Below are positions 966 to 60,583 of a stretch of 64,000 nt of DNA, piece after piece. A model generated the notes under the pieces. The model saw only the letters and a list, made by a program, of their open reading frames with translations. It made no database searches and had not been told where the DNA came from. How positions within the stretch are numbered: position 1 is the first letter of the stretch; every line of letters starts with the position of its first letter. A program made the position numbers and the translations under genes. This DNA is from Phycisphaerales bacterium (GTDB lineage Bacteria > Planctomycetota > Phycisphaerae > UBA1845): contig CP070691.1 of NCBI GenBank assembly GCA_020353195.1, positions 3,717,665 through 3,781,664 of the forward strand. The letters are read 5' to 3'.

Positions 966-1718
966 TTACTCCGCCAGTTCCAGCACGGCGAATTCGTCGA
1001 TCAGGTGGTAGTTGGTCTTGGACAGCCGCGGCGTCATGGTCAGTTCCGGCCCGGGAAGATATCGGGAGTAGTTGTATCGCCCGATCAGCACGCGCCATCT
1101 CGCGCCCGGCTCGAATCGTTCGCCGCGGGCGGTGAGATCCTGGATGGGCATGGCCAACTCGGCCGTCCACTCCGAGTCTTCGTCGCGCCACTCATTGACC
1201 GTGCCGACGCACTGCGCCGCCGCCTTGAGGCCGCAGGTGTAGTCGAAGCAGCTCGGCACGCCGAGCCGCCCGCGTCCGGGGAACCAGTAGCTGCTTTTAT
1301 GGCTGCGTGGCGTCACGTACAGCTCCCAGTACCAGGTCTGCCCTTCGGGCTTGAGGAACAACTCGCACACGTCGCCCTTCTGCCAGTGAGCGAGCTGATC
1401 GGCGTCCCCTTCCGCGACGATGTCGGAATCCGCGAAGCGTGCGGCCAGGTAGAGATAGCGCTGATCCCGTGCGAGACGCACTTCGCCTCCCTCGATGACG
1501 GACTGACCCGTATTCGCGCGGTCGGATGAAAGATGCAGGCGATAGGCCGGGGCACGAGCCCAGATCGGCTCGTCGAGCCGCCCGTCCACCGTTACGGGCG
1601 CGGCGGCGTAGTGCGCCACCATCGTCGGCGGGCCTGCCGGCGCGGGTCTGGACTGGCTGCATCCGGCGGACAGCGCCCCGAGAACGGGTATGCACATTGC
1701 GAGGAATCGAGCGTTCAT
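966..1718 (-). CDS. CBM9-like carbohydrate-binding lipoprotein
   Basis: A 250-residue protein with a lipoprotein signal: hydrophobic N-terminus and lipobox LSAGC, with Cys at residue 20. The rest looks like one family 9 carbohydrate-binding domain: 'VTVDGRLDEPIWARA' near residues 42-56, a central 'GDVCELFLKPEG', and the late 'WTAELAMPI' strand. Such lone CBM9 lipoproteins usually hold sugar ligands at the cell surface. Its ATG overlaps the stop of the upstream symporter by the ATGA four-base pattern (1715-1718), so the two are translationally coupled. The coupling suggests a role in substrate capture for that transporter (inference). Confidence 0.75.
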   Translation of the reverse strand: MNARFLAMCIPVLGALSAGCSQSRPAPAGPPTMVAHYAAAPVTVDGRLDEPIWARAPAYRLHLSSDRANTGQSVIEGGEVRLARDQRYLYLAARFADSDIVAEGDADQLAHWQKGDVCELFLKPEGQTWYWELYVTPRSHKSSYWFPGRGRLGVPSCFDYTCGLKAAAQCVGTVNEWRDEDSEWTAELAMPIQDLTARGERFEPGARWRVLIGRYNYSRYLPGPELTMTPRLSKTNYHLIDEFAVLELAE

Positions 1719-12711: not shown

Positions 12712-12969
12712 AATGTGTGATCTGCAGATGTGGGGGCCCACGCTCGATATAATTGCAGAGATGCTTTATTAGGTATTGACCTTAGACGTCGATACTCGTG
12801 CGTTGAGGACAGGCATAGCGCTATTGAAAGCGGCGGCGAGCCGTGGTAGATTCTCGTTTGGCGGACACGCACTGATGTCCGATACTTCGTGTATCGCGAG
12901 TGTCTGTGCACGTCGCGCAGAACAGTGTGAGTGTGCGCATCGCCGCCGGCGAATGCCGGGAGGACAGCC

Positions 12970-14007
12970 ATGTTACGAACACGGAGAACGAAGTCGAGGA
13001 GTTACCGCACGATGAAGGGCAGGCCGACTGGCGGGGCCGCATTCACCCTCATCGAGCTGCTTGTTGTTGTCTCAATCATTGCGCTTCTGGTTGCGATCCT
13101 GCTTCCCTCGCTGACGAAAGCCCGCAAGCAGGCCAAGTCCGTCGTGTGCTTCAGCAACCTCAAGTCGATGGGCACCGGCATACTTACTTATGCGACGGAG
13201 TATGGCGACAGGCTTCCTGGCCCGCTGCACCCTGCGGTCTACAAGTATCAGATTGAGGGGGATACCGAATGGGAGCGGTATCTGCGCGGTCGCCAGTTGA
13301 CTTATGTTCTGGCCAGTACGCTCGGGCAACGGGGCGGCGCGGGAGCTCAGAAGAACATTACCGACGATATTGCCGACTGCCCGGTGATGTCGGCCATCGT
13401 GCCTGACAGCCATTTCTACGCGGTTCAGGCGGCCACCGGGCGGGGCATATCCCCGACGCATTACGCGATGAACCACTACGGGAGTTTCACGGCTGAGCAG
13501 ACCGGGGTCGTCGGAAACTTCAGACTGACGAGCCCGATGTACTACTTCGGGTACAGCCCGCCTCAGCTGCCCAGCCAGTGGAGCGAGACGACGCGCCAGG
13601 AGGTGGTGAACAACCCCCCGCAACCGACAGCCCGGATTCGCCGTCCGTCTGAGGAATGGGTGCTTGCCGACGCCTGGTACCGGCCGCGGGTGAACACCGG
13701 CTATCCCGAGTTGCAGCAGGAAGGCCCCTACCAGTCCAGCTGGAGTGGCATAGCGCTTCCGAGTTTTGCGCCGCACTTCAAGCGGGGGTCAAGGTCCGTT
13801 CCCATCGATGAGGGCGAACGCACTGTTGTCGGGGCGCTGGTCAGGAAGAAGAAGGCAGACGGCAGGACGAACGCCGTGTTCTTTGACGGGCATGCCGCGG
13901 GCGAAGTGTCCAGGACCCTGGAGTGCGAAGGCTGGGACCTTCTTTACGGGTTCAGGGGTACGATGAACCCCAATACGCCGCTTGATCCGTGTATGCGGTG
14001 GAGATAG
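12970..14007 (+). CDS. Type II secretion-type pseudopilin with C-terminal VFFDGH motif
   Basis: 345 residues. The prepilin signature '[19 protein letters not shown]' is followed by 'ILLPSLTKARKQAK', as in the many planctomycete proteins of this class, and the C-terminus has '[12 protein letters not shown]', the processing-associated DG motif. The residue before the Phe is Ala (GGAA-FTLIE) where the prepilin peptidase normally needs Gly, so cleavage may be less efficient. Two starts are credible: ATG 12970 (GGGAGGA before it) and ATG 13012 (GAGGAG ten bases before), giving leaders of ~24 or ~10 residues. It shares 'LPGPLHP' and 'RRPSEEWVLADAWY' with its downstream neighbour, which marks a tandem duplication. 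Probably exported to the surface or periplasm; the cargo role is unknown. Confidence 0.8.
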   Translation: MLRTRRTKSRSYRTMKGRPTGGAAFTLIELLVVVSIIALLVAILLPSLTKARKQAKSVVCFSNLKSMGTGILTYATEYGDRLPGPLHPAVYKYQIEGDTEWERYLRGRQLTYVLASTLGQRGGAGAQKNITDDIADCPVMSAIVPDSHFYAVQAATGRGISPTHYAMNHYGSFTAEQTGVVGNFRLTSPMYYFGYSPPQLPSQWSETTRQEVVNNPPQPTARIRRPSEEWVLADAWYRPRVNTGYPELQQEGPYQSSWSGIALPSFAPHFKRGSRSVPIDEGERTVVGALVRKKKADGRTNAVFFDGHAAGEVSRTLECEGWDLLYGFRGTMNPNTPLDPCMRWR

Positions 14008-14028
14008 CGGCCGCCGGTGCCCGGAGCG

Positions 14029-14054
14029 ATGCCTGAACCGGTGGGGGCATTTTT
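14029..14054 (+). terminator. Possible intrinsic terminator after the first pseudopilin gene
   Basis: ATGCC (14029-14033) pairs with GGCAT (14046-14050) around a 12-base loop, followed by TTTT. The stem is only 5 bp plus a possible G-T pair, so this is tentative. Confidence 0.35.
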
Positions 14055-14085
14055 CGCTTTGCCTGTTATGAGGGAGAGAATTTCG

Positions 14086-14114
14086 TTGTGATACCGGCGC
14101 GTGTCCGGTAGGAT
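14086..14114 (+). promoter_or_regulatory. Putative promoter of the second pseudopilin gene
   Basis: TTGTGA (14086-14091), 17-base spacer, TAGGAT (14109-14114). Same layout as the neighbouring promoters. It lies between the putative terminator and the gene. Confidence 0.45.
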
Positions 14115-14212
14115 CGTAAGGGAGGTGTGTGCTGCTCCTTTTGCCGCGCAGGTGACGGCAAGGCGGCATTTGACAGTTCGTTGGACAGATCAGCGACAAG
14201 GCGGTGATCATC

Positions 14213-15115
14213 ATGAACGGCCAGCGTGATAGACGAGGTGCGATGCGTACTCGGCCAGGCAGTCAGCGAGGCTTTACGCTCATCGAGTTGCTTGTCGTCG
14301 TTTCCATTATTGCGCTGTTGATCGCAATCCTTCTGCCGAGCCTCAAGGCAGCCCGCGAGCAGGCCAAGAGCCTTCAATGTTCGGCCAACCTCCGGTCCAT
14401 GGGGTCGGGCGTTAACCTGTACGTGCAGGACCACGTCATGTTGCCCGGGCCGCTGCATCCGCCGATCTACCGCCGCACGGGGCTCGATGACCCCCGTTTC
14501 AACCCGATGCCGGAGGATACCCAGCGCGTGTGGTTCCTCCTGTATCGGCTGGCCCCGTACTTCAGCAAGTCGGACAACTTCCTCGAATACGCCGATGCCG
14601 TTTCCACCTGCCCGGTGGCCGCTCGAATCAGGAAAGACGAGGAGTTCATCCCGGAGGAAAACGGCGGGCCGGTAGGCAACCCCAGTTGGAGCCACCCCTT
14701 TAACTACCTGCCGAACATGTGGGGCAACACGAACCCGCAGTTCTACTTCGGGTGGGTGAACACCGGCGTAGACTGGGAAGGTGCTGTCAACGGCATTCGC
14801 TCGGGGCAGTATCACGCGCCAATCCCGCTGGACCGGATCAAGCGTCCCGGCGATGAGTGGATGATCGGCGACGCCTGGTGGGACCAGAAAGTCGTGAGAC
14901 CGAACCCGGCGGCCGACCCGGAGCTGACGCTGCTGGGGACGTGGCAAATGGACGGCGGCAGCTCCCAGAATCCGCTCCCGCGGGAGCCGTATCACGGCTC
15001 GAAGAAGAGAGGGACGAACTTGGTGTTCTTCGACGGTCACGCGGCCACGTTTAACGGGATCGAGGAGTGGCCGCTGCACTTCCCCGCCAACCGGCTGCCG
15101 GACGACGGCACATAG
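14213..15115 (+). CDS. Type II secretion-type pseudopilin (paralogue of the preceding gene)
   Basis: About 300 residues. The leader ends in Gly directly before '[18 protein letters not shown]', the textbook prepilin peptidase site, followed by '[14 protein letters not shown]'. The C-terminus carries '[14 protein letters not shown]'. The start is uncertain: ATG 14213 gives a 20-residue leader and ATG 14243 a 10-residue one with GAGG close before it. It shares with its neighbour '[10 protein letters not shown]', '[16 protein letters not shown]' and the DG-motif end. Many such pseudopilins occur in planctomycete genomes without the secretion machinery next to them, and none is seen here. Confidence 0.8.
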
Positions 15116-24445: not shown

Positions 24446-24478
24446 CGGGCCCGCCTGCCTTGATCGCAGGCGGGCCCG
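24446..24478 (+). terminator. Perfect 13-bp inverted repeat between the giant gene and the GHL10 gene
   Basis: CGGGCCCGCCTGC (24446-24458) and its exact complement (24466-24478) with a 7-base loop. Only two T follow, so it may act as a partial terminator, a processing site or an mRNA end-stabiliser rather than a full stop. Confidence 0.5.
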
Positions 24479-24510
24479 TTAGCCATGTTCCCGATCATGG
24501 GAGGAAGACT

Positions 24511-26295
24511 ATGAGGTTTCTCGGCTTGGATGGGAGGACCCGGTGGCCAGGAGTCGGGGCTTCGTTCTGTTGCGTCTTGTTCTGTTCGGTCTTTGTCCGC
24601 GCGGCTGCAGGGCAGGCGATCGCCGTTGATGGCGGGGAGGGCGAGTTTGCTGCCCCGGCCGGGGCGTGGACGACCGGCGAATCTGTGACGCCCGCGACCA
24701 CGCCGTCGGAGTTCCGGGGGTTCTGGGCGGACGTGTTTCACGCGGGCCTTCAGAATGCCGCCCAGGTCGACGAGATGATTGCCGAGGCGGTTGCGGGGAA
24801 TTACAACGCGATCGTGCCGGAGGTCCTGGCATTTCACGACAACCAGTACGGTTCTCACGGTGCGTACTGGAAATCCGACATTGTGGCCCGATCGTCCTAC
24901 GTCACCACGTCGTTCGACCCGTTGGCGTACATCGTGCAGCGGGCTCACGCCAACGGCCTAGAGGTGCACCCGTGGCTGGTTGCGTTTCGCGTGTCCAGCA
25001 CGTGGCCGCCGCCGGGCAACGCCACGGTGGCCGCCCATCCCGAGTGGCTGATGGTCCCCAGGGCGTCCATGGGCAGCGTGGCGACGGTCGGCAGCTACTA
25101 TACGTTCGATCCCGGTTCGCCGGGCGTTCAGGATTATCTGATGAGTATCGTCCGGGAGTTGTGCGAGGACTACGAGATCGACGGCATTCACTGGGACTAC
25201 ATTCGATACACGGACGTGGACGCTGGCTATCCCGCCGACCTGTCGTACGCGCATTCGACGCTGCGGCGGTTCCAGGCGATCACGGGGTATCCGGGTACGC
25301 CGCCTACAGATTACGGGCCGTGGAACGACTTCCGCCGCCGGACCATCACCGAGGTCGTGCGACGGGCCATGTTCGAGATTCCGATCGTCGCGAACCCGCG
25401 TCAGCCGCTGCGGCACACCGCGGCGCTGGTGACGTGGTATCCGGCCAACGTCAATTTCCACCTGACCCGCCCTTATTACGAGTCTTTCAGCGACTGGGAA
25501 TACTGGCAGTCGATGGGCTATCTCGACGCCACGATCCCGATGTGCTACTTCGACGAGAACAGCTACCCGTCGACCTACCGGGCCTGGGTGGACAACTCGG
25601 TGATGTGGGCGAACAACTACAACCGGCACACGTACATCGGGCCGGGTATCTACTTGAACACCTTTGCCGACAGCGTGACGCAGATCCAGTACGCCCGCGC
25701 CGCGGGGGCGCACGGGATCTGCACCTACTCGTACCGGTCGACGAACGACGCGGGGCAGTACTGGTCCAACTGGTACCCGTATGTGGCGACCAACGTCTTC
25801 ACCGAAGCGGCCTCGGTGCCGACCATGCCCTGGCGCGATCCGGCCGCCGCCACGGCGGGTGCGGTCTTCGGGCGCGTGACCGACGGCGCCACCGGTGCGC
25901 CGATCGACGACGCGACCATCGAGGTGAACGGATTTGCGATGGTTCAGACGGACGGGAACGGATGCTATCTAGTGGCGAATCTGTCGGCCGGCGCGTCCGG
26001 CACCATCGTCCCGTTCAGCGCGAACTACGCCGGCTACTCCGAAGTTCACCGCCCGGCGGTGCTGGTCGAGCGGGCCGGTTTCACGGAGGCCAACTTCGCT
26101 CTCGGTACGTGGCTGGAGGGCGACTACGACGTGGACGGGGACGTGGACCTGGACGACTACGACCGGTTCTTCGAATGTCTGACCGATCCGGACGGGGGTC
26201 CGATCGGCGCGGGCTGCGACGTGTTCGACTTTGACACCGACGCCGACGTGGATCTGCGGGATTTCTCCGTGATCCAGGCGTCGTTTACCGATTGA
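24511..26295 (+). CDS. Secreted GHL10/DUF187-type glycosidase with carboxypeptidase-regulatory-like and dockerin-like domains
   Basis: 594 residues. A signal peptide ends near 'RAAAGQ'. The barrel domain (~65-440) begins 'SEFRGFWADVFHAGLQNAAQ' and contains 'DGIHWDYIRYTDVDAGY', the acidic signature strand of the GHL10 family (YngK-like), which acts on polysaccharide or peptidoglycan-type glycans in the few cases studied. Next comes a regulatory-like beta domain ('GRVTDGATGAPIDDATIEVNG'), then a dockerin-like pair of calcium loops. GGGAGGA precedes the ATG. It follows the giant dockerin gene by 101 bp. A close paralogue with the same domain order lies at 38406. Confidence 0.85.
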   Translation: MRFLGLDGRTRWPGVGASFCCVLFCSVFVRAAAGQAIAVDGGEGEFAAPAGAWTTGESVTPATTPSEFRGFWADVFHAGLQNAAQVDEMIAEAVAGNYNAIVPEVLAFHDNQYGSHGAYWKSDIVARSSYVTTSFDPLAYIVQRAHANGLEVHPWLVAFRVSSTWPPPGNATVAAHPEWLMVPRASMGSVATVGSYYTFDPGSPGVQDYLMSIVRELCEDYEIDGIHWDYIRYTDVDAGYPADLSYAHSTLRRFQAITGYPGTPPTDYGPWNDFRRRTITEVVRRAMFEIPIVANPRQPLRHTAALVTWYPANVNFHLTRPYYESFSDWEYWQSMGYLDATIPMCYFDENSYPSTYRAWVDNSVMWANNYNRHTYIGPGIYLNTFADSVTQIQYARAAGAHGICTYSYRSTNDAGQYWSNWYPYVATNVFTEAASVPTMPWRDPAAATAGAVFGRVTDGATGAPIDDATIEVNGFAMVQTDGNGCYLVANLSAGASGTIVPFSANYAGYSEVHRPAVLVERAGFTEANFALGTWLEGDYDVDGDVDLDDYDRFFECLTDPDGGPIGAGCDVFDFDTDADVDLRDFSVIQASFTD

Positions 26296-28149: not shown

Positions 28150-29094
28150 ATGTCAACCGAGGCCGAAACTCCGCGAATTCGCGTTGCCGATGAGAATGAT
28201 CTGCCCGTGCTGCACGCCGTGGCGGCGCGGGCGCTGTGTTTCGATTCGTTCACCGAGGAGTTGCTGGGCGAGAAGCTGTTTCGGTGCCCGCGCCCCGATC
28301 GAGAGACGTTTCGGGTCTACCTCGCCGAGCGGAACGGCACACCGGTGGGGATGATGCAATCGGTGTCCCGGCCGGACGATGCGAAGGGTTGGCTTGGTGT
28401 CTTCGCGGTGGATGCTGCCCATCGCCGGCAGGGTATCGCGACGGTGCTGCTCCGGCGGGTGGCGGATGACTGGCGCCGGGCGCGTATTCGTGACGTGGAG
28501 GTTCTGGCGATTCCGGGCAATTACTTCACGCCGGGGTTGGATCCGCGTTATACGGAAGCGTTGTGCTTCCTTGAACATCACGGGTTCGAGCGGTTCAAGG
28601 ATTGCGTGAATCTGCTGGCTGATTTGAGCGACCCGTTCGACACGGCCGGTGAGGAGGCGCGGCTGGGCAAGCTCGGGATCGTCGTTCGCCGTGCCGATCG
28701 CGGTGACGGTGATCTGTTGGACGCGTTTTTCACGGACCATTTCGGGGTGGACTGGCGGCTGGAGGCGGAACTGGCCATGGCGAACGACCCGCCCGGGCTG
28801 CACTTGGCCCTGAAGGGGGGAAACATCATTGCGTTCAGCGCGCATTCCGGCCAGAACCGCGAGTGGGGTTTCTTCGGGCCGATGGGTACGGCGCCGGACG
28901 CGCGAGGCACGGGGATCGGGCGGGTCCTGCTCTGGCATTGCCTCAACGACCTGCGGGACGCCGGGCACAGGACCTCGGTGATTCCGTGGGTCGGGCCGAT
29001 CGGGTTCTACTCTCGTTACATTCCCTGCCGGGTGGAGCGGGTGTTCTGGCGGTACCGCACGGCGGTCAGCGATCCGTCCATGCCGGCTACGTAG
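28150..29094 (+). CDS. Tandem GNAT N-acetyltransferase
   Basis: 314 residues. Two GNAT folds follow one another, each with the acetyl-CoA loop: 'AHRRQGIATVLLRRV' at ~95 and 'DARGTGIGRVLLWHC' at ~255. Tandem GNAT proteins of this size acetylate amines or alcohols of small molecules or proteins; the substrate is unknown. GGAG eight bases before ATG 28150 fixes the start. The last 79 bases overlap, in opposite direction, the end of the metallophosphoesterase/PQQ gene. Confidence 0.75.
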   Translation: MSTEAETPRIRVADENDLPVLHAVAARALCFDSFTEELLGEKLFRCPRPDRETFRVYLAERNGTPVGMMQSVSRPDDAKGWLGVFAVDAAHRRQGIATVLLRRVADDWRRARIRDVEVLAIPGNYFTPGLDPRYTEALCFLEHHGFERFKDCVNLLADLSDPFDTAGEEARLGKLGIVVRRADRGDGDLLDAFFTDHFGVDWRLEAELAMANDPPGLHLALKGGNIIAFSAHSGQNREWGFFGPMGTAPDARGTGIGRVLLWHCLNDLRDAGHRTSVIPWVGPIGFYSRYIPCRVERVFWRYRTAVSDPSMPAT

Positions 29095-31316
29095 CACACC
29101 GGGCCTGCTGCCTCCGCGGCCGGCGAATCGACTGTGGTGGGGGCCAGGACGTAGAAGCCTGGTGTGGCTTGATATTGCCAGAGCAGTTTTCCATCGGTGG
29201 CGTCGAGGACGCTGAGCAGGCCGCCGTTTGAGCAAACGTAGACTCTCCCTTCGTGCTCTGTCGGCGGGATGGGAAACCGCCCGGCGGGGATGTCGACGTC
29301 CCAGCGAGCATGGCCGCCCCTGTCCAGCTTGGAGATCCGGTTATCCGTCGTGCGCACGTAGAGGGACCGTCCGTCCTGAGCCGGTCCGATCCCGGAGGCC
29401 TTGGCGTCCAGGTTCGTCACAAGTTTGCCCTCGGCGGAGTAGGTGCCGAGCCGGTATCCCCGGTCGCAGACAAAGAGCACGTCGTCGATGACGACAGGTC
29501 CGCAGTCGGCGGGCGCCCAATAGCGGACGCCCTTTCCTTCGCTCGATCTGGGGCCGAGCGACTTGTACCGCAGTTCTCCGTCGTCGCGGGCGACGGCGTA
29601 CAGGTACCCGTCCCAGGCGCCGAACACGAGCATATCTTTCCAGAGGGCGGGCTTGGATTCGATGCCGTAGTCGGCTCGGCGGAAGGTCCATCGCGGTTTT
29701 CCGTCGGTCAGGTTCAGCGCGTGCATGTGCCCGCTGTTGTCGCCGATGAAGACGGTGCCGCGTGCGGCTGGGTCGATCAGTGGCCAGCCGTAGACCGGCG
29801 ACCCCGCATCGAACGCCCATTGTTGCTTTCCGTGTTTGTCGAGCGCGTAGACCTTGCCGTCACCCGAGCCGACGACCAGCGTGTCCCCTGACCAGGCCGG
29901 TGTGCCCAGGACTTCGCCACCGGTGTCGAATCGCCATCGTTGGGCCCCGGTGGTCTTGTCCAGCGCGATCACCGCGCCGTCGTTTCGTGCGACAATCAGC
30001 AGGTCATCGGCGATGACCAATCCGGCCTTGATCGCGGCAGGCACTTGCTGTTGCCAGAGCACGTCAACCGACGGCGGGTGCACGCGAAACACGCGTGTGC
30101 GGCGGTCGGTCGTGCCGTCGGGCATGGTGACCTGTGCGGTGAGCAGATGGGCGCCTGCGGTCAGGGCGCCGACGGCTATGCTGTATGTGCGGTGGTGCTT
30201 TTCGTCGCTGGAATCCGAGGGGCGGCGCGCGGCTCTGGCTGTCTGGCCGTCGATCTGGATGTCGACCGTTGCGTCTTCGGCCGCCGTTGGCGTGCGCGAG
30301 ACCCGGAGGGCGAGGTCCACGTCGATGGTATCCGCTTTGCAGATGAATCCGTCCGTCGGGCGGGCGATGTCGAGCAGTCGGCTCGGCGGTGTGCGGGGCA
30401 GGGGCTTTTCCAACACGGCGGTCCAGGCGCGTTTCTTCTTCTTGGTCCCGCCTGCCTGTGGATCGCGATGGTGACGGTAGGCGTAGCGCAGCATGCCGTC
30501 GACTACGCTGAGGATTCCATAGCCGGCATTGGAGCCGAACGTCGAACCGCCCATGACGCCGGAGATGCCCTGGATATCGCGATGGCCGGTTCCATGTCCG
30601 TGCCCGTAGAGGATGAGTACGACGTTGTAGTCCTTGAGCATGTCGATCAGCGTGTCGACCTCGGCGGGGGTGGCGAACCCACCGCTGTCTGGAGGGTGGT
30701 GCATGGCGATGAAGATGGGCGTACCGGCGGGGGTGCGGTCGAGATCCGCCTTGAGCCAGGCCCGGGTCTTCGCGTCTATGGTGGGGACCGGCTCCTGCGG
30801 TGAGGCGGAGCTGATGCAGGCGAAGTGGCAGCCGAACTTGTCGAACGAGTAGCTCTCGCCGCCGTGGCGCTTGCGCATGATGCGGTACATGGCCACCCAC
30901 GTGTTGTCGTGGTTGCCGGGCGTGACGTACATCGGGCAGGGCAGATCGCGGAAGGCCTGCAGGAAGACGTCCCAGGTGTCGTCGATGACGCCGTACTCGG
31001 TCAGATCACCGGTGGCGAAGGCGAAGGCCGGCGCCGGCGCGGTATAGCCGAACGGGGTCAGCTTCTGCGGGGCGGCCGCCTGCTCGCAGATCCAGCGGAT
31101 GGTCCCGTTGCCGCGAGGCGGGCCGGCAGCGCCGGTGCGCAGCAGGTGCGGGCTGACGTGCACGTCGGCGAAATGCAGGACAGAGAATTCGGCACGGTTG
31201 GCCGGGGGTTCCGCCCGGGCCCCCAGAGCGCCGCTTTCGCCCGGTGCGGCGGCCGACCCGACTCCCAGGATAAGGATGATCGGCCACGCCAGCAGCAGAA
31301 ATCGCTTCAGTACCAT
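29016..31316 (-). CDS. Secreted metallophosphoesterase fused to a PQQ-like beta-propeller
   Basis: 766 residues. A signal peptide ends near 'GVGSAAAPG'. The N-terminal half has all calcineurin-like metal blocks: 'HFADVHV', 'ATGDLTEYG', 'GNHD', 'MHHPP' and 'GHGHG'. A linker with an Ig-like beta part (~315-420) leads to a PQQ-type propeller (~425-755) of repeated blades such as 'GAVIALDKTTGAQRW', 'GKVYALDKHGKQQW', 'GHMHALNLTDGKPRW' and 'GLLSVLDATDGKLLW'. Phosphoesterase/propeller fusions of this kind are known in planctomycetes but not characterised to my knowledge. It diverges from the DUF1460 fusion gene (182-bp gap). Its 3' end overlaps the GNAT gene by 79 bp. It is probably periplasmic. Confidence 0.85.
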   Translation of the reverse strand: MVLKRFLLLAWPIILILGVGSAAAPGESGALGARAEPPANRAEFSVLHFADVHVSPHLLRTGAAGPPRGNGTIRWICEQAAAPQKLTPFGYTAPAPAFAFATGDLTEYGVIDDTWDVFLQAFRDLPCPMYVTPGNHDNTWVAMYRIMRKRHGGESYSFDKFGCHFACISSASPQEPVPTIDAKTRAWLKADLDRTPAGTPIFIAMHHPPDSGGFATPAEVDTLIDMLKDYNVVLILYGHGHGTGHRDIQGISGVMGGSTFGSNAGYGILSVVDGMLRYAYRHHRDPQAGGTKKKKRAWTAVLEKPLPRTPPSRLLDIARPTDGFICKADTIDVDLALRVSRTPTAAEDATVDIQIDGQTARAARRPSDSSDEKHHRTYSIAVGALTAGAHLLTAQVTMPDGTTDRRTRVFRVHPPSVDVLWQQQVPAAIKAGLVIADDLLIVARNDGAVIALDKTTGAQRWRFDTGGEVLGTPAWSGDTLVVGSGDGKVYALDKHGKQQWAFDAGSPVYGWPLIDPAARGTVFIGDNSGHMHALNLTDGKPRWTFRRADYGIESKPALWKDMLVFGAWDGYLYAVARDDGELRYKSLGPRSSEGKGVRYWAPADCGPVVIDDVLFVCDRGYRLGTYSAEGKLVTNLDAKASGIGPAQDGRSLYVRTTDNRISKLDRGGHARWDVDIPAGRFPIPPTEHEGRVYVCSNGGLLSVLDATDGKLLWQYQATPGFYVLAPTTVDSPAAEAAGPVCYVAGMDGSLTAVRYRQNTRSTRQGM

Positions 31317-31497: not shown

Positions 31498-34398
31498 ATG
31501 AAGCGAACAGAACGCGTTGGACGGAGAGTGTGGCCGGCGATCATACTCATCTGGGCCGCGGCAGGCTGCCGACCGGAGCCGACGGCGCCGATGGCCGGTG
31601 GTGAGCGGGGGACGGCGGCGGACCTTGCCGCCAGGCCGCTGTTTACCTTCAGTGAAAACGACCTGGATCGTTACCTGCGTCTGCTGCACGACACGGAACC
31701 GGATCTGCGGCGCCGGATCATCCACCTGGGTCGCAAGGCCATCGGCCAGCCCTACGAGATCTATCTGCTGGGCGAGTTTCCGTACGAGTTCATGGACCCG
31801 GACCCCATCTACTGCCTGGCCAAGAGCGATTGCCTGACCTTCTGCGAGCACATGTACTCGATGGCGCTCAGCGATGACTGGTGGGGCTTCCTGCGCACGT
31901 TGCAGCGCCTCCGGTATCGCGACGGCGTCATCGGGATGGCTACGCGAAACCACTACACCGTCGCGGATTGGAACCGAAACAACGCGTTCCTTTTCGATGA
32001 CCTGACCACGAAGCTGGGCGGCGGGCAGGCGTGGGTGCCGCTGAAGCAGGTGTGCAAGCGGGCGAGGTTCTTCGCCCGGTACGGCATCGGGCAGGACATT
32101 CCGGACGAGCCGATCAGCGATTCGTACGTGCCCAAGGAGGTTCTGCCCGATGTTTTGGACGAGCTGGTCGACGGTGATTTCGTGAACATCATTCGCGGCG
32201 ACGCGGAGTCCCAGGGCGCGGGCCATACCGGTATGATCGCTATCGGCGAAGACGGTACGGTGAACCTGCTCCATTCGGCCAGACCCGCCGTCCGTGAGGA
32301 ATCGCTGATCGAGTACGTGAACCGGAACCGCCGCTGCCTGGGCGTCAAGATCCTGCGGTTGCGCCCTAGCGCCGAGCGGATCATGGAATCGGCGCTGGCG
32401 TCCTCGCCGGAGGCAACGGAGGTGACACGGGCATCGTTGACGGCCGCCCTGGCGGGCTCACCGCTCATGTCGACCGGCGCCCCGCCGTCCTATTCGGAGG
32501 ATTGGGCTTCTGCCATGAGATTGCAGTCCTACCGCCTGACCTACGACACGCCGACCGATCCGGCGCTGCAGGCCGCGCTCGAGGAGATCGACGAGAGGAT
32601 CGGCGGTGAGCTGGGCATCCCGCAGGGTGACCGGGCGTTCGGGGTGCTCGGCCTGACCGGGCAGCGTCTGGCGATGGTCGGGCCGGACGCGATGTTCTAC
32701 GGGGCGAGCGTGCCGAAGATCTGCATTGTGATGGCCTATTTCGCGACGAATCCGGAGGCGGCGGTGAACCTCGATCCGCAGGTCGAGCGCGAGCTGCAGC
32801 TGGTGATCAAGCGTTCGAGCAACGAGCTGGCGGCCAAGTACAGTCAGCTCATCGGACTGGAGGCCATTCAGGAGCTGCTGCAGTCGAAGCGGTACGGCTT
32901 CTACGACGAGGAACACGGTGGGCTGTGGTGTGGGAAGCACTACGGCATCGCCACGCCACGAATGGGCGATCCGGTTCACGACCATTCGCATGGTGTCACG
33001 GTTCGACAGTGCCTGCGGTTTTACCTGATGCTCGAGCAGGGTCGGCTGGTCAGTGCCGAGGCGTGCGCGAAGCTCAAGGAGATATTCGCCGCGCCGCAGC
33101 TGGAGTTCAACAACGACCGGTTTGTTCGCGGCCTCAACGGGCGCGACGTGACGATGGTCCGCAAGAGCGGTCTGTGGGAGGACTGGCACCTGGACACCGC
33201 CCGCGTTCAACACGGCGACCACGTTTACGTGCTGGCGGGGATGGCCCATCATCCCAAGGGCGAGGAATACCTGGCCGGTGTGGCCGCTGCGGTGGACGAG
33301 GCGCTGTGCGGCCCGCAGCCGGTGGAGAAACCGTACGCCCACCGGTTGATCATACACGAGCGGCCGGACGACTTCCGGGGCGGTGCGGGCCGGCAGGGTG
33401 ACGTGTCGTTTGTGCCGGGCGGCGTGCTGCTGCCGGCGGGCACCGGCGGCGCGGGCGCGGTGTACGAGTCACCGGTGATCGAGACGGACTCGAAGTTCAA
33501 CGAGGTGGTTCTTTCGTGGAACGTGGACTCGCCCCCGGGCGTCGGTTTCAGCATTGAGGTCCGAGTCGGGCGTCGCTTCTATGATACCTGGGCGCCCTGG
33601 CTCTACGTGGCCGAGTGGGGCGACGCGGTGCCGACGGGGGAGAAGCTCACCAAGTGCGATGCGGGCTGGATCGACGTGGATTACTTCCGGTCGAAGGAGC
33701 GCTACGACCGCGTGCAATACCGCATTCGGGCTGTCGGCGGCGAATCGTCGGCCGGTGGGCCCGAGCCGGAGCCGGCCCGCATCGAGCGGGTGGCGGTCTG
33801 CCTCAGCGACACGACGGGCATCCCCACGGCATTGCACGCGTCGACGCCGGAACCTGATCCTGTCGAGCCCGGACAATGGCGGCGACGGTTGCCCGTGCCG
33901 TTTCGAAGTCAGAAGACCAGCAGACCCGAAATGGTCGGTGAGATCTGCAGCCCGACGTCTGTGGCCATGGTGATGGCCTATCGGGGCGTGGACAGGACGA
34001 GCGAGGAAGTGGCCGAGCGCGTGTTCGACGCCCGCCACAAGATCTACGGCAATTGGCCGCTGGCGATCCAGGCTGCGTACAGCTTCGGCGTGCCCGGGTA
34101 CCTGACGCGGTTCTCCGATTGGGCGGACGTCGAGCGGGCGATCGCCGTCGGTCAGCCGCTGGTCATTTCCATCGTGGCTCGTCCCGGCGAGTTGACCGGC
34201 GCGCCGTACCCGGACACGCCCGGGCACCTGCTGGTGATCGCCGGGTTCGACGAGGAGGGCAACGTGGCGGTCAACGATCCGGCAGTCGGTTCGGCGGAGG
34301 AAGGTCAACTCAGTTACAAGCGGAACGAGCTGGACACGGTCTGGATGCGGGCCAAGGGCGGGACTGCATACGTTCTGCTGCCTCGACGGCAGGGGTGA
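31498..34398 (+). CDS. Lipoprotein fusing DUF1460 (NlpC/P60-like), class A-like serine hydrolase and peptidase C39-like domains
   Basis: 966 residues. The lipoprotein signal ends 'WAAAGC' (Cys24). Domain 1 (~45-290) is a DUF1460-type cysteine hydrolase: 'AKSDCLTFCEHMY' (Cys112) and 'AGHTGMIAI' (His243). Domain 2 (~365-610) is a class A beta-lactamase/PBP-fold serine hydrolase: SxxK as S404-V-P-K407, SxN as S440-S-N442, and K556-S-G. A beta-sandwich (~635-770) follows, then a C39-like cysteine peptidase (~790-965): 'EICSPTSVAMVMAY' (Cys817), 'GHLLVIAGF' (His910), 'VNDP' (Asp927). All three active sites are intact. GGAG six bases before ATG 31498 decides the start. It lies 121 bp before the second three-hydrolase gene. 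Joint action on peptidoglycan fragments or peptides outside the cell is inference. Confidence 0.8.
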   Translation: MKRTERVGRRVWPAIILIWAAAGCRPEPTAPMAGGERGTAADLAARPLFTFSENDLDRYLRLLHDTEPDLRRRIIHLGRKAIGQPYEIYLLGEFPYEFMDPDPIYCLAKSDCLTFCEHMYSMALSDDWWGFLRTLQRLRYRDGVIGMATRNHYTVADWNRNNAFLFDDLTTKLGGGQAWVPLKQVCKRARFFARYGIGQDIPDEPISDSYVPKEVLPDVLDELVDGDFVNIIRGDAESQGAGHTGMIAIGEDGTVNLLHSARPAVREESLIEYVNRNRRCLGVKILRLRPSAERIMESALASSPEATEVTRASLTAALAGSPLMSTGAPPSYSEDWASAMRLQSYRLTYDTPTDPALQAALEEIDERIGGELGIPQGDRAFGVLGLTGQRLAMVGPDAMFYGASVPKICIVMAYFATNPEAAVNLDPQVERELQLVIKRSSNELAAKYSQLIGLEAIQELLQSKRYGFYDEEHGGLWCGKHYGIATPRMGDPVHDHSHGVTVRQCLRFYLMLEQGRLVSAEACAKLKEIFAAPQLEFNNDRFVRGLNGRDVTMVRKSGLWEDWHLDTARVQHGDHVYVLAGMAHHPKGEEYLAGVAAAVDEALCGPQPVEKPYAHRLIIHERPDDFRGGAGRQGDVSFVPGGVLLPAGTGGAGAVYESPVIETDSKFNEVVLSWNVDSPPGVGFSIEVRVGRRFYDTWAPWLYVAEWGDAVPTGEKLTKCDAGWIDVDYFRSKERYDRVQYRIRAVGGESSAGGPEPEPARIERVAVCLSDTTGIPTALHASTPEPDPVEPGQWRRRLPVPFRSQKTSRPEMVGEICSPTSVAMVMAYRGVDRTSEEVAERVFDARHKIYGNWPLAIQAAYSFGVPGYLTRFSDWADVERAIAVGQPLVISIVARPGELTGAPYPDTPGHLLVIAGFDEEGNVAVNDPAVGSAEEGQLSYKRNELDTVWMRAKGGTAYVLLPRRQG

Positions 34399-34519
34399 CC
34401 GGGCATGTGTCGTGGCGGCGCACGCTCGGGCCCGGCGGAGGCTCGCATATCCGGGCGCAGTTTCCGTGTGCAGGTTGTGGCGTGCGGTCTGTGGTTCATG
34501 GTTCCGAGGAGGTGGGTTC

Positions 34520-37500
34520 ATGATGTCAATGAGGGTTCACGTCGGTTTCCTCGTTGCTGCGGTTCTGTTGCCTTCGATGTGGGCCGTTCGGGCCCTTGCG
34601 CTGGAGACGACCACTGATGACGGGCTGCTCGAAAAAGTCGAGGAGGCGGTTAGCGCCGGGCGTTTCAGCGAGGCCGAGCTGATGCTCCGCGCGCAAATCG
34701 CCGAGCCGGACGGGCCGGTGGTCGGTCCGTACGCGACGCAGTTGGAGATCATCCGGCGAATCCGGCTGGACTACTCGCTGACGGGCGAGGACATGCTGGC
34801 CAAGCTTCGCAAGGTCGCCCCTGACGTGACGGTGAGCGACATCGACCGCTGGCGGGAGCAGGGGGTGTTGCAGTTCCGCCCCATCGACGGTCAGATTCGG
34901 TACTTCAAGCGTGAGCCGTCGAACCTGTTTCGGTTCTGCGAAGAGGCCCGCTCGCGCCGTTCGGCGGCGAAGCAGCCCCGGCGAGCCGGCTGGAAATTCT
35001 CCCTTCCCGCGCATCTGGCGAGGCTGCTCGACCGGGCCCGGCGCAGCGGCGAAGCGGAAGTCTTCCCGGTCAAGCATGAGATCACGTATCGGCTGGCGGT
35101 TCATGAGGGTCATCCGCGGCTGAAGCCCGGGGCGAAGGTGCGCTGCTGGCTGCCGTTTCCGCAGGAGTACCGTCAGCAGAAGTCCGTACGTTTGCTGTCG
35201 GCCGAGCCGGCGGGTGCCGTCGTGGCGCCCAACGGTCACCCGCAGCGGACGATCTACTTCGAGCAGACCATCGTGGACCCGTCGAAGCCGCCGGTGTTTA
35301 CGGCCGAGTTCGAGTTCGTGACCTATGGCTACTGTCCCGACCTCGATCCGGCGAAGGTCCGGCCCTACGATCGCGATGCCGCGTTGTTCCAGGAATACAC
35401 GGCCGAGCGCCCGCCGCACATCGTGTTCACGCCCGAGGTCCGGCGGATCGTGGCGGACGTGGCGGGCGACGAGCCGAATCCGCTGCTGCGCGCCAAGAAG
35501 CTCTTCCGATGGGAGAATGACAACATCCGGTATTGCTCCGAGATGGAATACAGCACGATTGCGAACATCTCGGACAAGGCGTTGACATCGGGCAAGGGCG
35601 ACTGCGGCGTTCAGGGGTTGCTGTTCATCACGCTGTGCCGGGCGGCGGGGATCCCCGCGCGGTGGCAGTCGGGCTGGGAGAGCGAGCCCAACGCCTGGAA
35701 CATGCACGACTGGGCGGAGTTCTACATCGAGCCGTGGGGCTGGTTGCCGGCGGACCCGTCGTACGGGCTGCAGAAGCACGACGATCCGCGCGTGCGGGAG
35801 TTCTACTGCGGGCACCTTGATCCCTACCGCATGATCGTGAATCTCGACTACGCGCGCGAGCTGTCACCGCCGAAGACGAGCTTCCGCAGCGAGCCCAACG
35901 ATTTTCAGCGTGGCGAGATCGAGATCGACGGACACAACCTGTATTTCGACGAGTGGGACTGGACGTTCGACGTGCGCACGGTGCCGCTCGAAGGCGGGCT
36001 GACGGCACTCGAGGAGGCCATGGACGCCGCCGTGCCGGATTTGCTCACCGACGGGAAGATGTCCGGCGCGGTCATAGCCGTGGGGCGCAAGACCGCTGAC
36101 GGCTGGGAGACCTGGCGAAAGGCCTACGGCTACAAGCAGACGGAACCGTCCCCGGCGCCCATGCCCGAAGACGCCGTCTTTGACATGGCATCGCTGAGCA
36201 AGCCGATCGCGGCCGGCACGAGCCTGATGGTGCTGGCGGATCAGGGCAAGGTCGACGTCGGCGATCCGGTGGGCAAGTATCTCCCCGAGTTCAACGAGGG
36301 CGACAAGAAGGATGTCACGATCCGTCACCTGATGACCCACACGTCGGGCGAGAGGCCCTACGTCCACGCCGACGAGCAGAAGAAACTCAAGGCCGAAGGC
36401 GGATTCCCCTGCCGCGATCTGTTAAGAGAGCACATTCGCAAGCTCGACCTGATCCACAAGCCGGGGGAGGTGGTGCATTACAGCTGTCTGAACGCGATAC
36501 TCGCCGCGGAAGTGGTTCGCGTGATCAGCGGGATGGAGCACAGCGACTTCGCCGCCAAGCACGTGTTCGAGCCGCTGGGTTTGAAGGAGACCGGATTCCT
36601 CCCGCCCGAGCGCCTGAGCGCCCGCATGGTTCCCACGACGCAGACGGATTACGGCCGGGGTGAGGGCGGTTTCCTGCTGGGGCAGGTCCACGATCCGCTG
36701 GCGGCCATGCAGGGGGGAGTCTCGGGTAATGCGGGACTGTTCAGCACGGCCGCCGATCTGTCGCGCTTCGCCCGAATGATGCTCAGCGGCGGCGAGCTGG
36801 ACGGTGTGCGCATTCTCGAGCGGAAGACGGTTGAACAGATGACGCGCGTACAGAACCCGGGGGCGAAGAACACGAAAGGCAAGCCCGATCGGCGGGGGCT
36901 GCTGTGGGACATCTACCAACCCGATCCCGGCGACACGGGCGTCGACGCGTTGTACGCGTTCGGTCACACCGGCTACACGGGCCCCGCCATCCGGTTCTAT
37001 CCGCAGCAGGGCGTGTACGTCATTGCGCTGGCCAACCGCGTGCATCCCGACGACAGCGGGAAGGTGGCGGCGTTTCGCAGGAACGTGTGGCGAATCGTGG
37101 GCGAGACGCTCATGGGCGTCAGCGCCGGCGCGCCGGCGAAAGCGGACGTCCCGCCGCCCGGCGGCCCGACCACGCGAGCCTCACCGGCCCCGGAGCCGTC
37201 GTCCGCCGCAGCCGGCCCACCGGGCCAGCGCGTCGGTCCGGACGGGATCGGCGAGCTTTGCGTGCCGTCTGCGTTCCAACTGAGCGACGGGCGGCTCGAT
37301 GTGTTGGTGCATTTCCACGGCGGGTTCCAGCGGGTGGCGTCGGCGGCGGAGGAGGCCCGGATCACGTCGGCCGTTGTGAACGTCTCGAGGCCAGGGTTGT
37401 CCAGCGTTTACGAGAAGCCGTTCTCCGACACCGCGCTCTTCCGCGCGATCATCGACGACGCGATCCGGACACTAACAGAGGGCGGCACGATTCCTCCTGA

Positions 37501-38014
37501 CACCGAGCTGGGGCGGGTCTACGTGTCGTCGTTCAGCGCCGGGTTCGGTGCGGTGCGGGCGATCCTCGGCGTGCCCGAGTACCTCGACCTGATCGACGGG
37601 ATCGTGATGGCCGACTCGCTCTACTGCGGCTACGACGGCCCGGCCGAAAACCGCAAACCGGACGCGCGGCGGATGGGCGGTTTCCGCCGCTTCGCGGCCG
37701 AAGCCGAGGCCGGAAGGAAACTCATGCTCGTGACGCATTCCGCCCAGGTGCCCGGCCGATACGCGAGCACGACCGAGACGGCCGACGATCTCATTGCCCA
37801 TGTCGGGGCCGAGAGGCGCGCTGTCGATCCCGGCGACGGTCACATGCGGCTGGTGTCGCAGGCCGACGCGGGCGGCTTCCACGTGCGCGGCTTCGCCGGT
37901 GGCGAAGGAAGCGATCACATGGCACACCTGCGGCATCTGGGAGTCTGGTACCGGATGCTCCCCGTCAGCCTGGCACGCGGCGACACGCTTCCGGGGGCTA
38001 AGGTCCGCGACTGA
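34520..38014 (+). CDS. Secreted fusion of transglutaminase-like, class C serine hydrolase and alpha/beta hydrolase domains
   Basis: 1164 residues. A signal peptide ends near 'RALALE'. After a helical N-terminal region comes a transglutaminase-type cysteine domain (~200-450): 'KGDCGVQGL' (Cys362), 'NMHDWAEFY' (His396), 'ADPSYG' (Asp412). The second domain (~490-840) is a class C beta-lactamase-like serine hydrolase: 'ASLSKPIAAG' (S558-x-x-K561), Tyr654, 'GHTGYTG' (His816). A Pro-rich linker (~855-890) leads to an alpha/beta hydrolase (~895-1150) with 'VHFHGG' and the nucleophile elbow S1004-F-S1006-A-G. All active sites appear intact. GAGGAGG seven bases before ATG 34520 fixes the start. With the gene before it, it makes a pair with six different hydrolase domains. 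Confidence 0.8.
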   Translation: MMSMRVHVGFLVAAVLLPSMWAVRALALETTTDDGLLEKVEEAVSAGRFSEAELMLRAQIAEPDGPVVGPYATQLEIIRRIRLDYSLTGEDMLAKLRKVAPDVTVSDIDRWREQGVLQFRPIDGQIRYFKREPSNLFRFCEEARSRRSAAKQPRRAGWKFSLPAHLARLLDRARRSGEAEVFPVKHEITYRLAVHEGHPRLKPGAKVRCWLPFPQEYRQQKSVRLLSAEPAGAVVAPNGHPQRTIYFEQTIVDPSKPPVFTAEFEFVTYGYCPDLDPAKVRPYDRDAALFQEYTAERPPHIVFTPEVRRIVADVAGDEPNPLLRAKKLFRWENDNIRYCSEMEYSTIANISDKALTSGKGDCGVQGLLFITLCRAAGIPARWQSGWESEPNAWNMHDWAEFYIEPWGWLPADPSYGLQKHDDPRVREFYCGHLDPYRMIVNLDYARELSPPKTSFRSEPNDFQRGEIEIDGHNLYFDEWDWTFDVRTVPLEGGLTALEEAMDAAVPDLLTDGKMSGAVIAVGRKTADGWETWRKAYGYKQTEPSPAPMPEDAVFDMASLSKPIAAGTSLMVLADQGKVDVGDPVGKYLPEFNEGDKKDVTIRHLMTHTSGERPYVHADEQKKLKAEGGFPCRDLLREHIRKLDLIHKPGEVVHYSCLNAILAAEVVRVISGMEHSDFAAKHVFEPLGLKETGFLPPERLSARMVPTTQTDYGRGEGGFLLGQVHDPLAAMQGGVSGNAGLFSTAADLSRFARMMLSGGELDGVRILERKTVEQMTRVQNPGAKNTKGKPDRRGLLWDIYQPDPGDTGVDALYAFGHTGYTGPAIRFYPQQGVYVIALANRVHPDDSGKVAAFRRNVWRIVGETLMGVSAGAPAKADVPPPGGPTTRASPAPEPSSAAAGPPGQRVGPDGIGELCVPSAFQLSDGRLDVLVHFHGGFQRVASAAEEARITSAVVNVSRPGLSSVYEKPFSDTALFRAIIDDAIRTLTEGGTIPPDTELGRVYVSSFSAGFGAVRAILGVPEYLDLIDGIVMADSLYCGYDGPAENRKPDARRMGGFRRFAAEAEAGRKLMLVTHSAQVPGRYASTTETADDLIAHVGAERRAVDPGDGHMRLVSQADAGGFHVRGFAGGEGSDHMAHLRHLGVWYRMLPVSLARGDTLPGAKVRD

Positions 38015-38205: not shown

Positions 38206-38405
38206 AGGTGCCCGCCGGTGCGGTTTTGTCGATCGCGTGGACAGCGTCAGGTGATCGGCGAAACGGGCTACGTGACCGCGGTTGGGATGGGATTTCCAGT
38301 CAGCGCGTTATCGGAAGTCCGGGTTCCGGCGTCCCCTGACCGGTACGCCGCGGCATCGCACGGACGCGAATCGGGCGTCCGGCAGCCTGCGTGGAGGAGG
38401 AGTTC

Positions 38406-40145
38406 ATGGTCTCGGCATCGTGTCGTCATCGGACCCTGGTTGTCGTCGTTGCGCTGGGCGTTCTGTCTTGTGTGGGGTCGGTGTCCGCCCAGTCCGAGTT
38501 CCGCGGATTCTGGGTCGACGCGTTTCACCCAGGTTTCAAGACCACCTCGCAGATCAACGACATGGTGAACCGTGCGGTCACGGGCAACTACAACGCCATT
38601 GTCGCGGAGGTTCTGGCGTACCAGGACAACGCCGGCAGCGGTCACGGCGCGTATTGGAAGTCCAGCATCGTTCCGTGGGCCAGTGAGGTTGCGTGGAATT
38701 TCGACCCGCTGGCGTATCTGTGTCAGCAGGCGCATGCCCAGGGGATCGAGGTCCACGCCTGGTTGGTGGCGTACCGGGTCAGCACTTCGTGGCCGCCCAG
38801 CGGAAACTCCACGATCGCCAGTCATCCGGAATGGATCATGGTGCCCCGGGGGAACATGGGCACCGGGCCGGCGCCGATCCTCGGCAAGTACACGCTGGAC
38901 CCCGGCTCGCCCGAGGTGCAGGAGTACATCATCAGCATCGTCCAGGAACTGGTGGGTGGCTATCCCATTGACGGGATCAACTGGGACTACATCCGCTACA
39001 CGCAGACCGACGCCGGATATCCGGCCGACCTGACGTACACGAAGTCCAGCCTGGCCCGTTTCCAGGACATTACGGGGTACGTAGGCACGCCCCCGTCAGA
39101 AGGCGAGGCCTTGTGGGACGATTTCCGCCGGCGGACCATCAACGAGCTGGTTCGTCGCGCCCGAGCCGAGGTCGCCGCGATTGCCTCGAATCCGCGGCAG
39201 CCTGTTTGCCACTCGGCGGACCTGCTTGCCACGGGCAATGCGCCGTACTCCTTCTCGAGCAGCCTCGCTTATATCTACTTCCAGAACTGGCGTCACTGGA
39301 TGGAGATGGGCTGGCTCGACGCAGGCATGCCCATGAACTACAAACGCGAGCACTGCACCGGCGGCGCGCAAGGCGACCAGGCCACGTGGTATCGCAACTG
39401 GATTGACGCCATCGTCAACGACTGGCGATACGATCGGCACATGTACTGTGGTCAGGCGGACTATCTCAACAGCATGGCGAACAGCGTGATCCAGTTGCAG
39501 TACGTGTACGCTGCCGGGGCTGACGGCTCGATGAACTACTCGTACTATGCAACGAGGGCGGCGGAAACCGTGTGCGATGACAGCGACTCCTGGGTCAACG
39601 ACTGGAGTTGGTACTCGTACGTTGCGGCGAACATCTTCACCTCGCCTGCGTCCCTGCCTTCGATGCCCTGGCGCGACCCGGCGGTGGCGGTTGAAGGCAC
39701 GCTGTGGGGACAGGTCACCGACCACAGCACGGGGCTGCCCGTCGACGACGCCACGGTCCAGGTCGGCACGCTCGCCCCGGTCCAGACCGACGGAAACGGG
39801 TACTATGTCGTGACACTGGTCCCGGCGACGCAGACGGGCACCGCCTATGACGTCCAGGTGACGAAAGCGGGGTACCCCGATTGGATGGTCAGCGGCGTCC
39901 TGGTGGTGGCCGGCGATATCCGGCGTCGTGACGTCGACCTCGGCGCACCGCCGCCACCGGGCGACATGGACCACGACGGCGACGTGGATTATGACGATCT
40001 GATGTACTTCGTGTTTTGCCTCCAGGGCCCCGGAGTCACGTATCTGCCGGGTCATTTGTGTCTGGATGGCGACGCGGACGAGGACACGGACGTGGACTTG
40101 GTGGACTTCGCTTCATTCCAGGACGTATTCACCGGTCCGAGCTGA
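38406..40145 (+). CDS. Secreted GHL10/DUF187-type glycosidase with dockerin-like end (paralogue of 24511)
   Basis: 579 residues. A signal peptide ends at 'VSAQ-SEFRGFW'. The domain order is the same as in its paralogue: barrel with 'SEFRGFWVDAFHPGF' and 'DGINWDYIRYTQTDAGY', a regulatory-like domain ('GQVTDHSTGLPVDDATVQVG'), then calcium loops 'DMDHDGDVDYDD' and 'DGDADEDTDVDLVD'. Long stretches match the paralogue closely, including 'TMPW/SMPWRDPA' at the domain border, so duplication is recent enough to see by eye. GGAGGAG lies five bases before ATG 38406; the GTG at 38391 would overlap that site. Expected to act on extracellular glycans. Confidence 0.85.
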   Translation: MVSASCRHRTLVVVVALGVLSCVGSVSAQSEFRGFWVDAFHPGFKTTSQINDMVNRAVTGNYNAIVAEVLAYQDNAGSGHGAYWKSSIVPWASEVAWNFDPLAYLCQQAHAQGIEVHAWLVAYRVSTSWPPSGNSTIASHPEWIMVPRGNMGTGPAPILGKYTLDPGSPEVQEYIISIVQELVGGYPIDGINWDYIRYTQTDAGYPADLTYTKSSLARFQDITGYVGTPPSEGEALWDDFRRRTINELVRRARAEVAAIASNPRQPVCHSADLLATGNAPYSFSSSLAYIYFQNWRHWMEMGWLDAGMPMNYKREHCTGGAQGDQATWYRNWIDAIVNDWRYDRHMYCGQADYLNSMANSVIQLQYVYAAGADGSMNYSYYATRAAETVCDDSDSWVNDWSWYSYVAANIFTSPASLPSMPWRDPAVAVEGTLWGQVTDHSTGLPVDDATVQVGTLAPVQTDGNGYYVVTLVPATQTGTAYDVQVTKAGYPDWMVSGVLVVAGDIRRRDVDLGAPPPPGDMDHDGDVDYDDLMYFVFCLQGPGVTYLPGHLCLDGDADEDTDVDLVDFASFQDVFTGPS

Positions 40146-60570: not shown

Positions 60571-60583
60571 AACGCGAGACAGC

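Follow-up and report, generated by a model that had tools for sequence, protein, structure and literature searches.

Two adjacent exported multidomain proteins of a Phycisphaerales bacterium and their predicted role in dismantling muropeptides

The gene pair and its domains

A 64,000-nucleotide stretch of the genome of a Phycisphaerales bacterium (GenBank assembly GCA_020353195.1, contig CP070691.1, positions 3,717,665 to 3,781,664; hereafter the window, with positions counted from its first letter) carries two neighbouring genes for exported multidomain proteins, all parts of which lie on the forward strand (+). Protein 1 (31498..34398) is a lipoprotein of 966 amino acids (aa) that joins a DUF1460 domain, a class A-fold serine domain, a probably beta-rich accessory domain and a C39 domain. 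Protein 2 (34520..38014; 1164 aa) is exported and consists of an N-terminal domain followed by transglutaminase-like, class C (S12) and alpha/beta-hydrolase-like domains. Both open reading frames are unbroken, lie 121 bases apart, show a third-position GC (guanine plus cytosine) consistent with coding, and are preceded by Shine-Dalgarno sequences (GGAGAG before the ATG at 31498, GAGGAGG before the ATG at 34520). The signal peptide of protein 1 (31498..31569) carries the lipobox WAAAGC (C24), and lipoboxes are common to many of its orthologues; that of protein 2 (34520..34603) has a hydrophobic run ending in ALA. Two adjacent secreted proteins with six different hydrolase domains is also how a first-pass annotation, made from the letters of the DNA, had described the locus. 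The gene structure bears this description out, and all residue numbers given in it agree with the translations. No RNA family reached the gathering threshold in the 64-kilobase (kb) window, and scans for promoters and terminators gave nothing informative.

Pfam matches were counted above gathering scores, by which five of the six claimed domains could be placed, and each domain was aligned with homologues from planctomycete genomes. Every claimed catalytic residue was invariant across the 12–29 homologues available, depending on the domain. DUF1460 is a family of peptidoglycan amidases that cut the amide bond between N-acetylmuramic acid (MurNAc) and L-Ala. The DUF1460/AmiA-like domain of protein 1 (31729..32331; PF07313, residues 78–278) scored E = 3e-24 and 85.9 bits against a gathering score of 27, and matched the PDB structures 2p1g, 2im9 and 4h4j/4q68. 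To the cysteine site C112/H243 recognised in the first reading the alignment adds H259, all three residues being invariant (26/26), and the same Cys-His-His triad has been described for the family (PMC10318531).

The second domain of protein 1 (32488..33312) had been read as a class A-like serine site with SxxK, SxN and KSG motifs. Its residues S404, K407, S440, N442, K556 and G558 are invariant in 28/28 homologues and the middle S of KSG is variable, the conserved motifs being S404xxK407, S440xN442 and K556xG558. The Pfam match (Beta-lactamase2 PF13354, residues 451–580, E = 2.5e-5) is weak yet over the cut-off, and the top match of the PDB profile search, PBP-A, is weak too (E = 0.14). Structure prediction gave a confident AlphaFold model from a 17-sequence alignment (predicted local distance difference test, pLDDT, 90.5), for which the best Foldseek match was PBP-A (2j7v; E = 2.6e-10, template modelling score 0.70–0.74), with class A beta-lactamases or their precursors also among the best matches. 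V493, which a weak sequence alignment places at the position of the omega-loop Glu166, is L, V or I in 28/28 homologues. A hydrophobic residue in place of the omega-loop Glu is what would be expected of a DD-peptidase, not of a beta-lactamase, and by fold and motif the domain resembles PBP-A, as a predicted DD-peptidase. PBP-A itself is a DD-carboxy/endopeptidase acting on muropeptides (PMC11189452).

The accessory domain that follows (33313..33852, residues 606–785) was overlooked in the first-pass annotation. It comprises about 160 conserved residues of no known family, gave no match in the PDB profile search, and always accompanies the C39 domain, stand-alone genes included; among the relatives found it was never seen without C39. 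The C39 domain itself (33892..34284) matched Peptidase_C39_2 (PF13529, residues 799–929, E = 2.4e-17) and the putative C39-like peptidase 3erv in the PDB (3e-4). Its site C817/H910/D927 had been named correctly and is invariant in 27/27 sequences.

In protein 2, an N-terminal domain conserved in 27 sequences (34604..35059) precedes the transglutaminase-like domain (35060..35989, core 35447–35758). The latter matched Transglut_core (PF01841, residues 310–413, E = 7e-21) and the PDB entry 3isr, a 'putative cysteine protease' (1.7e-6), and the previously claimed triad C362/H396/D412 is invariant (29/29). The class C-like site S558xxK561 likewise fell within a Pfam family (36023..37072; Beta-lactamase PF00144, residues 502–851, E = 2.5e-60, 204.8 bits), with S558, K561, Y654, H816 and G818 invariant in 22/22 homologues and T817 present in 20 of them. 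The third motif of this S12 domain is HTG (H816TG), not KTG, and against the NCBIfam class C beta-lactamase model the domain scored 46.6 bits, the cut-off being 415. A Pro/Ala-rich linker (37175..37294) leads to the last domain (37295..37999), for which an alpha/beta-hydrolase elbow had been claimed. S1006 in this elbow, D1032, H1133 and H1136 are all invariant (12/12), and GFSAGFG fits the GxSxG pattern; a family placement was not obtained, as neither Pfam nor PDB profile searches gave a match. The single-sequence model was of low confidence (pLDDT 43) and its Foldseek search returned only chance-level matches. The combination of an HFHG motif, GFSAGFG and conserved Asp and His residues suggests an alpha/beta hydrolase.

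Two penicillin-recognising domains, of class A and class C fold and with intact SxxK motifs, could in principle serve beta-lactam resistance or defence against antibiotic peptides, and defence was among the readings first put forward. We reject beta-lactam resistance, as the class A-fold domain has no Glu166 equivalent and the scores lie far below beta-lactamase cut-offs. The HTG motif of the S12 domain argues in the same direction, as do the partners of these domains in relatives, which are wall enzymes. Nothing was found in support of defence, and we regard this explanation as extremely improbable.

Occurrence and domain partners in relatives

Of the 397 genomes of the class that were searched, 101 contain relatives of protein 2 and 60 contain relatives of protein 1; full-length orthologues of protein 1 in other planctomycete genomes are 49–67% identical. 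When 392 genomes were sampled across the phylum, most of the matches extended over the C39 half alone. The relatives named so far come from planctomycete metagenome-assembled genomes, mainly Phycisphaerae. Among 51 genomes of the family, ortholog-level matches placed both proteins in 8, protein 1 only in 1, protein 2 only in 0 and neither in 42 (Fisher p = 1.4e-8, or 1.4e-4 with each genus counted once and the relatedness of the genera ignored). Direct adjacency of the two genes is limited to the window's genome and that of one congener; each of 11 other genomes with both proteins has them on separate contigs, which can be long (901 kb and 137 kb, for instance, in genome G101). The first-pass annotation had looked to recurrence of both genes as neighbours for support, and what recurs is their presence in the same genome, with adjacency confined to two genomes of one genus. 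A conserved two-gene operon is therefore rejected as stated. Because adjacency is limited to the genus while the proteins co-occur unlinked elsewhere, the two are linked in function and not as a fixed operon.

The domains of both proteins also occur singly. Stand-alone genes in relatives encode DUF1460 (~300 aa), the class A-fold domain (~310 aa), the accessory domain with C39 (~420 aa), the N-terminal domain with the transglutaminase-like domain (~500 aa), S12, and the alpha/beta-like domain (~300–400 aa), and partial fusions join DUF1460 with the class A-fold domain, the class A-fold domain with C39, and the transglutaminase-like domain with S12. Among the genomes sampled, that of the window is the only one in which the alpha/beta-like domain is joined to protein 2; in four others its gene is on a different contig.

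The main evidence for function comes from the enzymes with which these domains re-sort. S12 relatives (37–44% identical) are fused to the exo-N-acetylmuramidase NamZ in 11 loci. The D-Ala-D-Ala dipeptidase M15 is fused to DUF1460 and the class A-fold domain in two loci and to DUF1460 and C39 in another; it also forms the C-terminal end of one full protein 1, and in the congener protein 2 begins with it and continues with the transglutaminase-like and S12 domains. In two loci the phosphodiester glycosidase NAGPA takes the place of DUF1460 before the class A-fold and C39 domains, and in one other locus an M19 dipeptidase is fused to the alpha/beta-like domain. Neighbouring genes are of similar kinds: the D-aminopeptidase M55 adjoins C39 genes in two loci, M19 lies beside one transglutaminase-like gene, and a glucosamine-6-phosphate (GlcN-6-P) deaminase/PIG-L protein adjoins another. 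S58 and an SSF symporter occur near one fused transglutaminase-like/S12 gene, and around protein 1 GlcN-6-P deaminase and regulators of the ROK and GntR types are found repeatedly (seven loci). NamZ lies near transglutaminase-like genes in four loci, in three of them beside a transglutaminase-like/S12 fusion. Finding NamZ within 3 kb of 4/17 transglutaminase-like loci has a chance probability near 1e-6 if each genome of 5 Mb is assumed to carry three NamZ genes, a figure that was set against no matched random-gene control and is overstated as the genomes are related. In all, each of the six domains is, in relatives, fused to or a neighbour of known enzymes of muropeptides or D-amino-acid peptides (NamZ, M15, M55, M19, NAGPA, GlcN-6-P deaminase), in agreement with the earlier suggestion that the pair dismantles cell-wall peptides. 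Because of this re-sorting with known muropeptide enzymes, we ascribe a probable muropeptide function to both proteins.

Predicted pathway, alternatives and genomic context

From the sequences we consider it likely that the pair dismantles muropeptides outside the cytoplasm, as a set of enzymes condensed into two polyenzymes. Enzymes that are separate in relatives would here have merged, giving an anchored lipoprotein and a second, exported protein; the substrates, without exception, and the sequence of the steps are our inference. DUF1460, going by its family, would cut the MurNAc-L-Ala amide bond and free the stem peptide, on which the PBP-A-like domain could act as a DD-carboxy/endopeptidase at D-Ala-D-Ala or at D-Ala-meso-diaminopimelic acid bonds. 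The amidase AmiE has an S12-family fold. The NamZ fusions in relatives suggest that the S12 domain is AmiE-like, i.e., another MurNAc-L-Ala amidase, or a D-amino-acid peptidase. The C39 and transglutaminase-like thiol domains may cut leftover stem or cross-bridge bonds, any choice of exact bonds being speculative, and the alpha/beta-hydrolase-like domain might, more speculatively still, take off a further ester or amide group. The sugars would be handled by NamZ, of which the genome has three copies located away from the pair, and by GlcN-6-P deaminase. We hold a more far-reaching version tentatively and think it the less probable outcome: a surface-bound assembly line for stem peptides, in which the transglutaminase-like domain (with its N-terminal domain), C39 (with its accessory domain) and the alpha/beta-like domain all from families not known to act on peptidoglycan, would be new muropeptide-specific peptidases and would provide planctomycetes with a complete extracytoplasmic route to life on bacterial necromass.

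Several points weigh against a dedicated role in muropeptide breakdown. C39 and transglutaminase-like families are not peptidoglycan-specific, and the alpha/beta-hydrolase-like domain fits no family. The survey of neighbours was descriptive and had no matched control set of random genes, and neighbourhoods vary by lineage. The genes closest to the pair in the window's own genome, for a GHL10 (glycosyl-hydrolase-like 10) protein and a phosphoesterase, do not belong to the catabolism of sugars or peptides; the genome's one GlcN-6-P deaminase, which adjoins a ROK gene, is ~0.4 Mb from the pair, and M55 D-aminopeptidase was not found in this genome, reported as 78% complete. Because of that incompleteness, absences from the genome carry little weight.

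The breadth of the C39, transglutaminase-like and alpha/beta hydrolase folds would also suit general scavenging of extracellular peptides and esters, with peptidoglycan as one substrate among many, as would the fusion of an S9 prolyl oligopeptidase to C39 in one locus and the metallopeptidase M1 that adjoins protein 2 in the congener. However, the DUF1460 amidases are a peptidoglycan-directed family, and the partners that recur, NamZ, M15 and M55, are specific for peptidoglycan or D-amino acids and are not general proteases, which makes this alternative unlikely. We consider it highly improbable that the proteins are a secreted weapon that lyses competitors or prey by attacking the intact sacculus: so many predicted wall-cutting activities on exported proteins might be expected of one, but Pfam recognised no wall-binding domain, and NamZ, M15, M55 and M19 are mostly exo-acting and thus suit fragments over intact sacculi.

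The same chemistry could instead be directed at the organism's own wall, in recycling or remodelling of its peptidoglycan. With a Mur ligase cluster in its genome, the organism makes peptidoglycan; anchoring as a lipoprotein fits periplasmic work, and AmiE of Bacillus subtilis acts on the cell's own turnover fragments (PMC5061867). Absence of both proteins from 42/51 family members, however, indicates that ordinary recycling can do without them, and their patchy distribution and the regulator and NagB neighbours look catabolic. Self-directed use, which is compatible with muropeptide dismantling as predicted here, strikes us as possible rather than probable.

Upstream of the pair, a divergent gene (29016..31316, − strand) encodes a calcineurin-like phosphoesterase with a pyrroloquinoline quinone (PQQ) beta-propeller (PF00149/PF13360), and genes of this kind neighbour protein 1 or its parts in seven loci of relatives. 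Downstream lies a GHL10 protein (38391..40145, +; PF02638, 1e-24), a paralogue of which stands on the other side of the pair (24460–26295); GHL10 genes also recur near class A-fold, C39 and transglutaminase-like/S12 genes in four loci. Further away in the window, a sodium:solute symporter and a protein similar to NagX, a glucosamine N-acetyltransferase (182.6 bits, below the cut-off of 480), are encoded next to each other, as a possible amino-sugar locus (59254–62872). Genes similar to those of a symporter and its neighbour (966–3715) are found a few kb ahead of one of the NAGPA/class A-fold/C39 fusions, and two adjacent prepilin-like proteins share a 13-residue motif (12931–15115).

Elsewhere in the genome, a pair of Gate-domain membrane proteins, which we take to be SpmA/SpmB-like, directly precedes NamZ (locus L149:5718-7091; one above and one just below the Pfam cut-off). 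Such pairs also lie beside two of the NamZ-S12 fusions and a few kb past the congener's protein 2 (L135:17962-19499), a transporter-like link. About 3 kb from a NamZ gene stands a conserved protein of ~450 aa without Pfam or NCBIfam match (L150:3010-4371), whose homologue in G101 makes up the N-terminal portion of a protein with the alpha/beta domain (L092:6338-8500); this is possibly another family of muropeptide enzymes.

Comparison with known systems

Each recognised domain comes from a known family, and muropeptide breakdown of the NamZ/AmiE type is known as well. A pair with such a layout was not known to the first-pass annotation, and we found no description of the compaction of six domains into two proteins in the literature searched, outside which subscription papers mostly lay. 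Nor did this literature connect peptidoglycan with the C39, transglutaminase-like and alpha/beta-like families concerned, or planctomycetes with NamZ. If the prediction is right, a poorly studied planctomycete lineage condenses a pathway of muropeptide degradation into two exported fusion proteins, and C39-like, transglutaminase-like and alpha/beta-hydrolase-like families annotated by fold only gain candidate functions. The question of feeding on fragments of bacterial walls thereby becomes testable for these planctomycetes.

The AmiE-NagZ-NamZ system of B. subtilis (ybbE, ybbD, ybbC), in which AmiE takes part in sequential extracellular muropeptide degradation (PMC5061867), encodes an S12 enzyme together with NamZ, as the S12 relatives found here are fused to NamZ. 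It differs in that the S12 domain of the window is fused to transglutaminase-like and alpha/beta domains, with NamZ elsewhere in the genome. The DUF1460 amidases of known structure (2im9, 2p1g, 4h4j/4q68) share the Pfam family and the Cys-His-His triad with protein 1, but are stand-alone enzymes, whereas DUF1460 is here one of four domains of a lipoprotein. PBP-A of Thermosynechococcus (2j7v) has the class A fold, the SxxK, SxN and KxG motifs and a hydrophobic residue in place of Glu166 in common with the domain of protein 1; the two are ~20% identical, and the latter, whose activity is a prediction, shares its chain with an amidase and a thiol peptidase domain. For the transglutaminase-like domain we draw, purely as an analogy, on the pseudomurein endoisopeptidases PeiW and PeiP, whose fold is transglutaminase-like. 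These enzymes cut an isopeptide bond of the cell wall (PMC4592898), but they are archaeal phage enzymes and act on pseudomurein.

Scavenging of environmental MurNAc or muropeptides has been documented in Tannerella forsythia (PMC7670621) and Fidelibacter multiformis (PMC11652737), and because of such precedents a scavenging ecology is plausible, if not proven, for the present organism. Use of peptidoglycan fragments from the environment would be common to all three. T. forsythia and F. multiformis are unable to make their own MurNAc or wall, whereas the genome described here has its own Mur ligase cluster.

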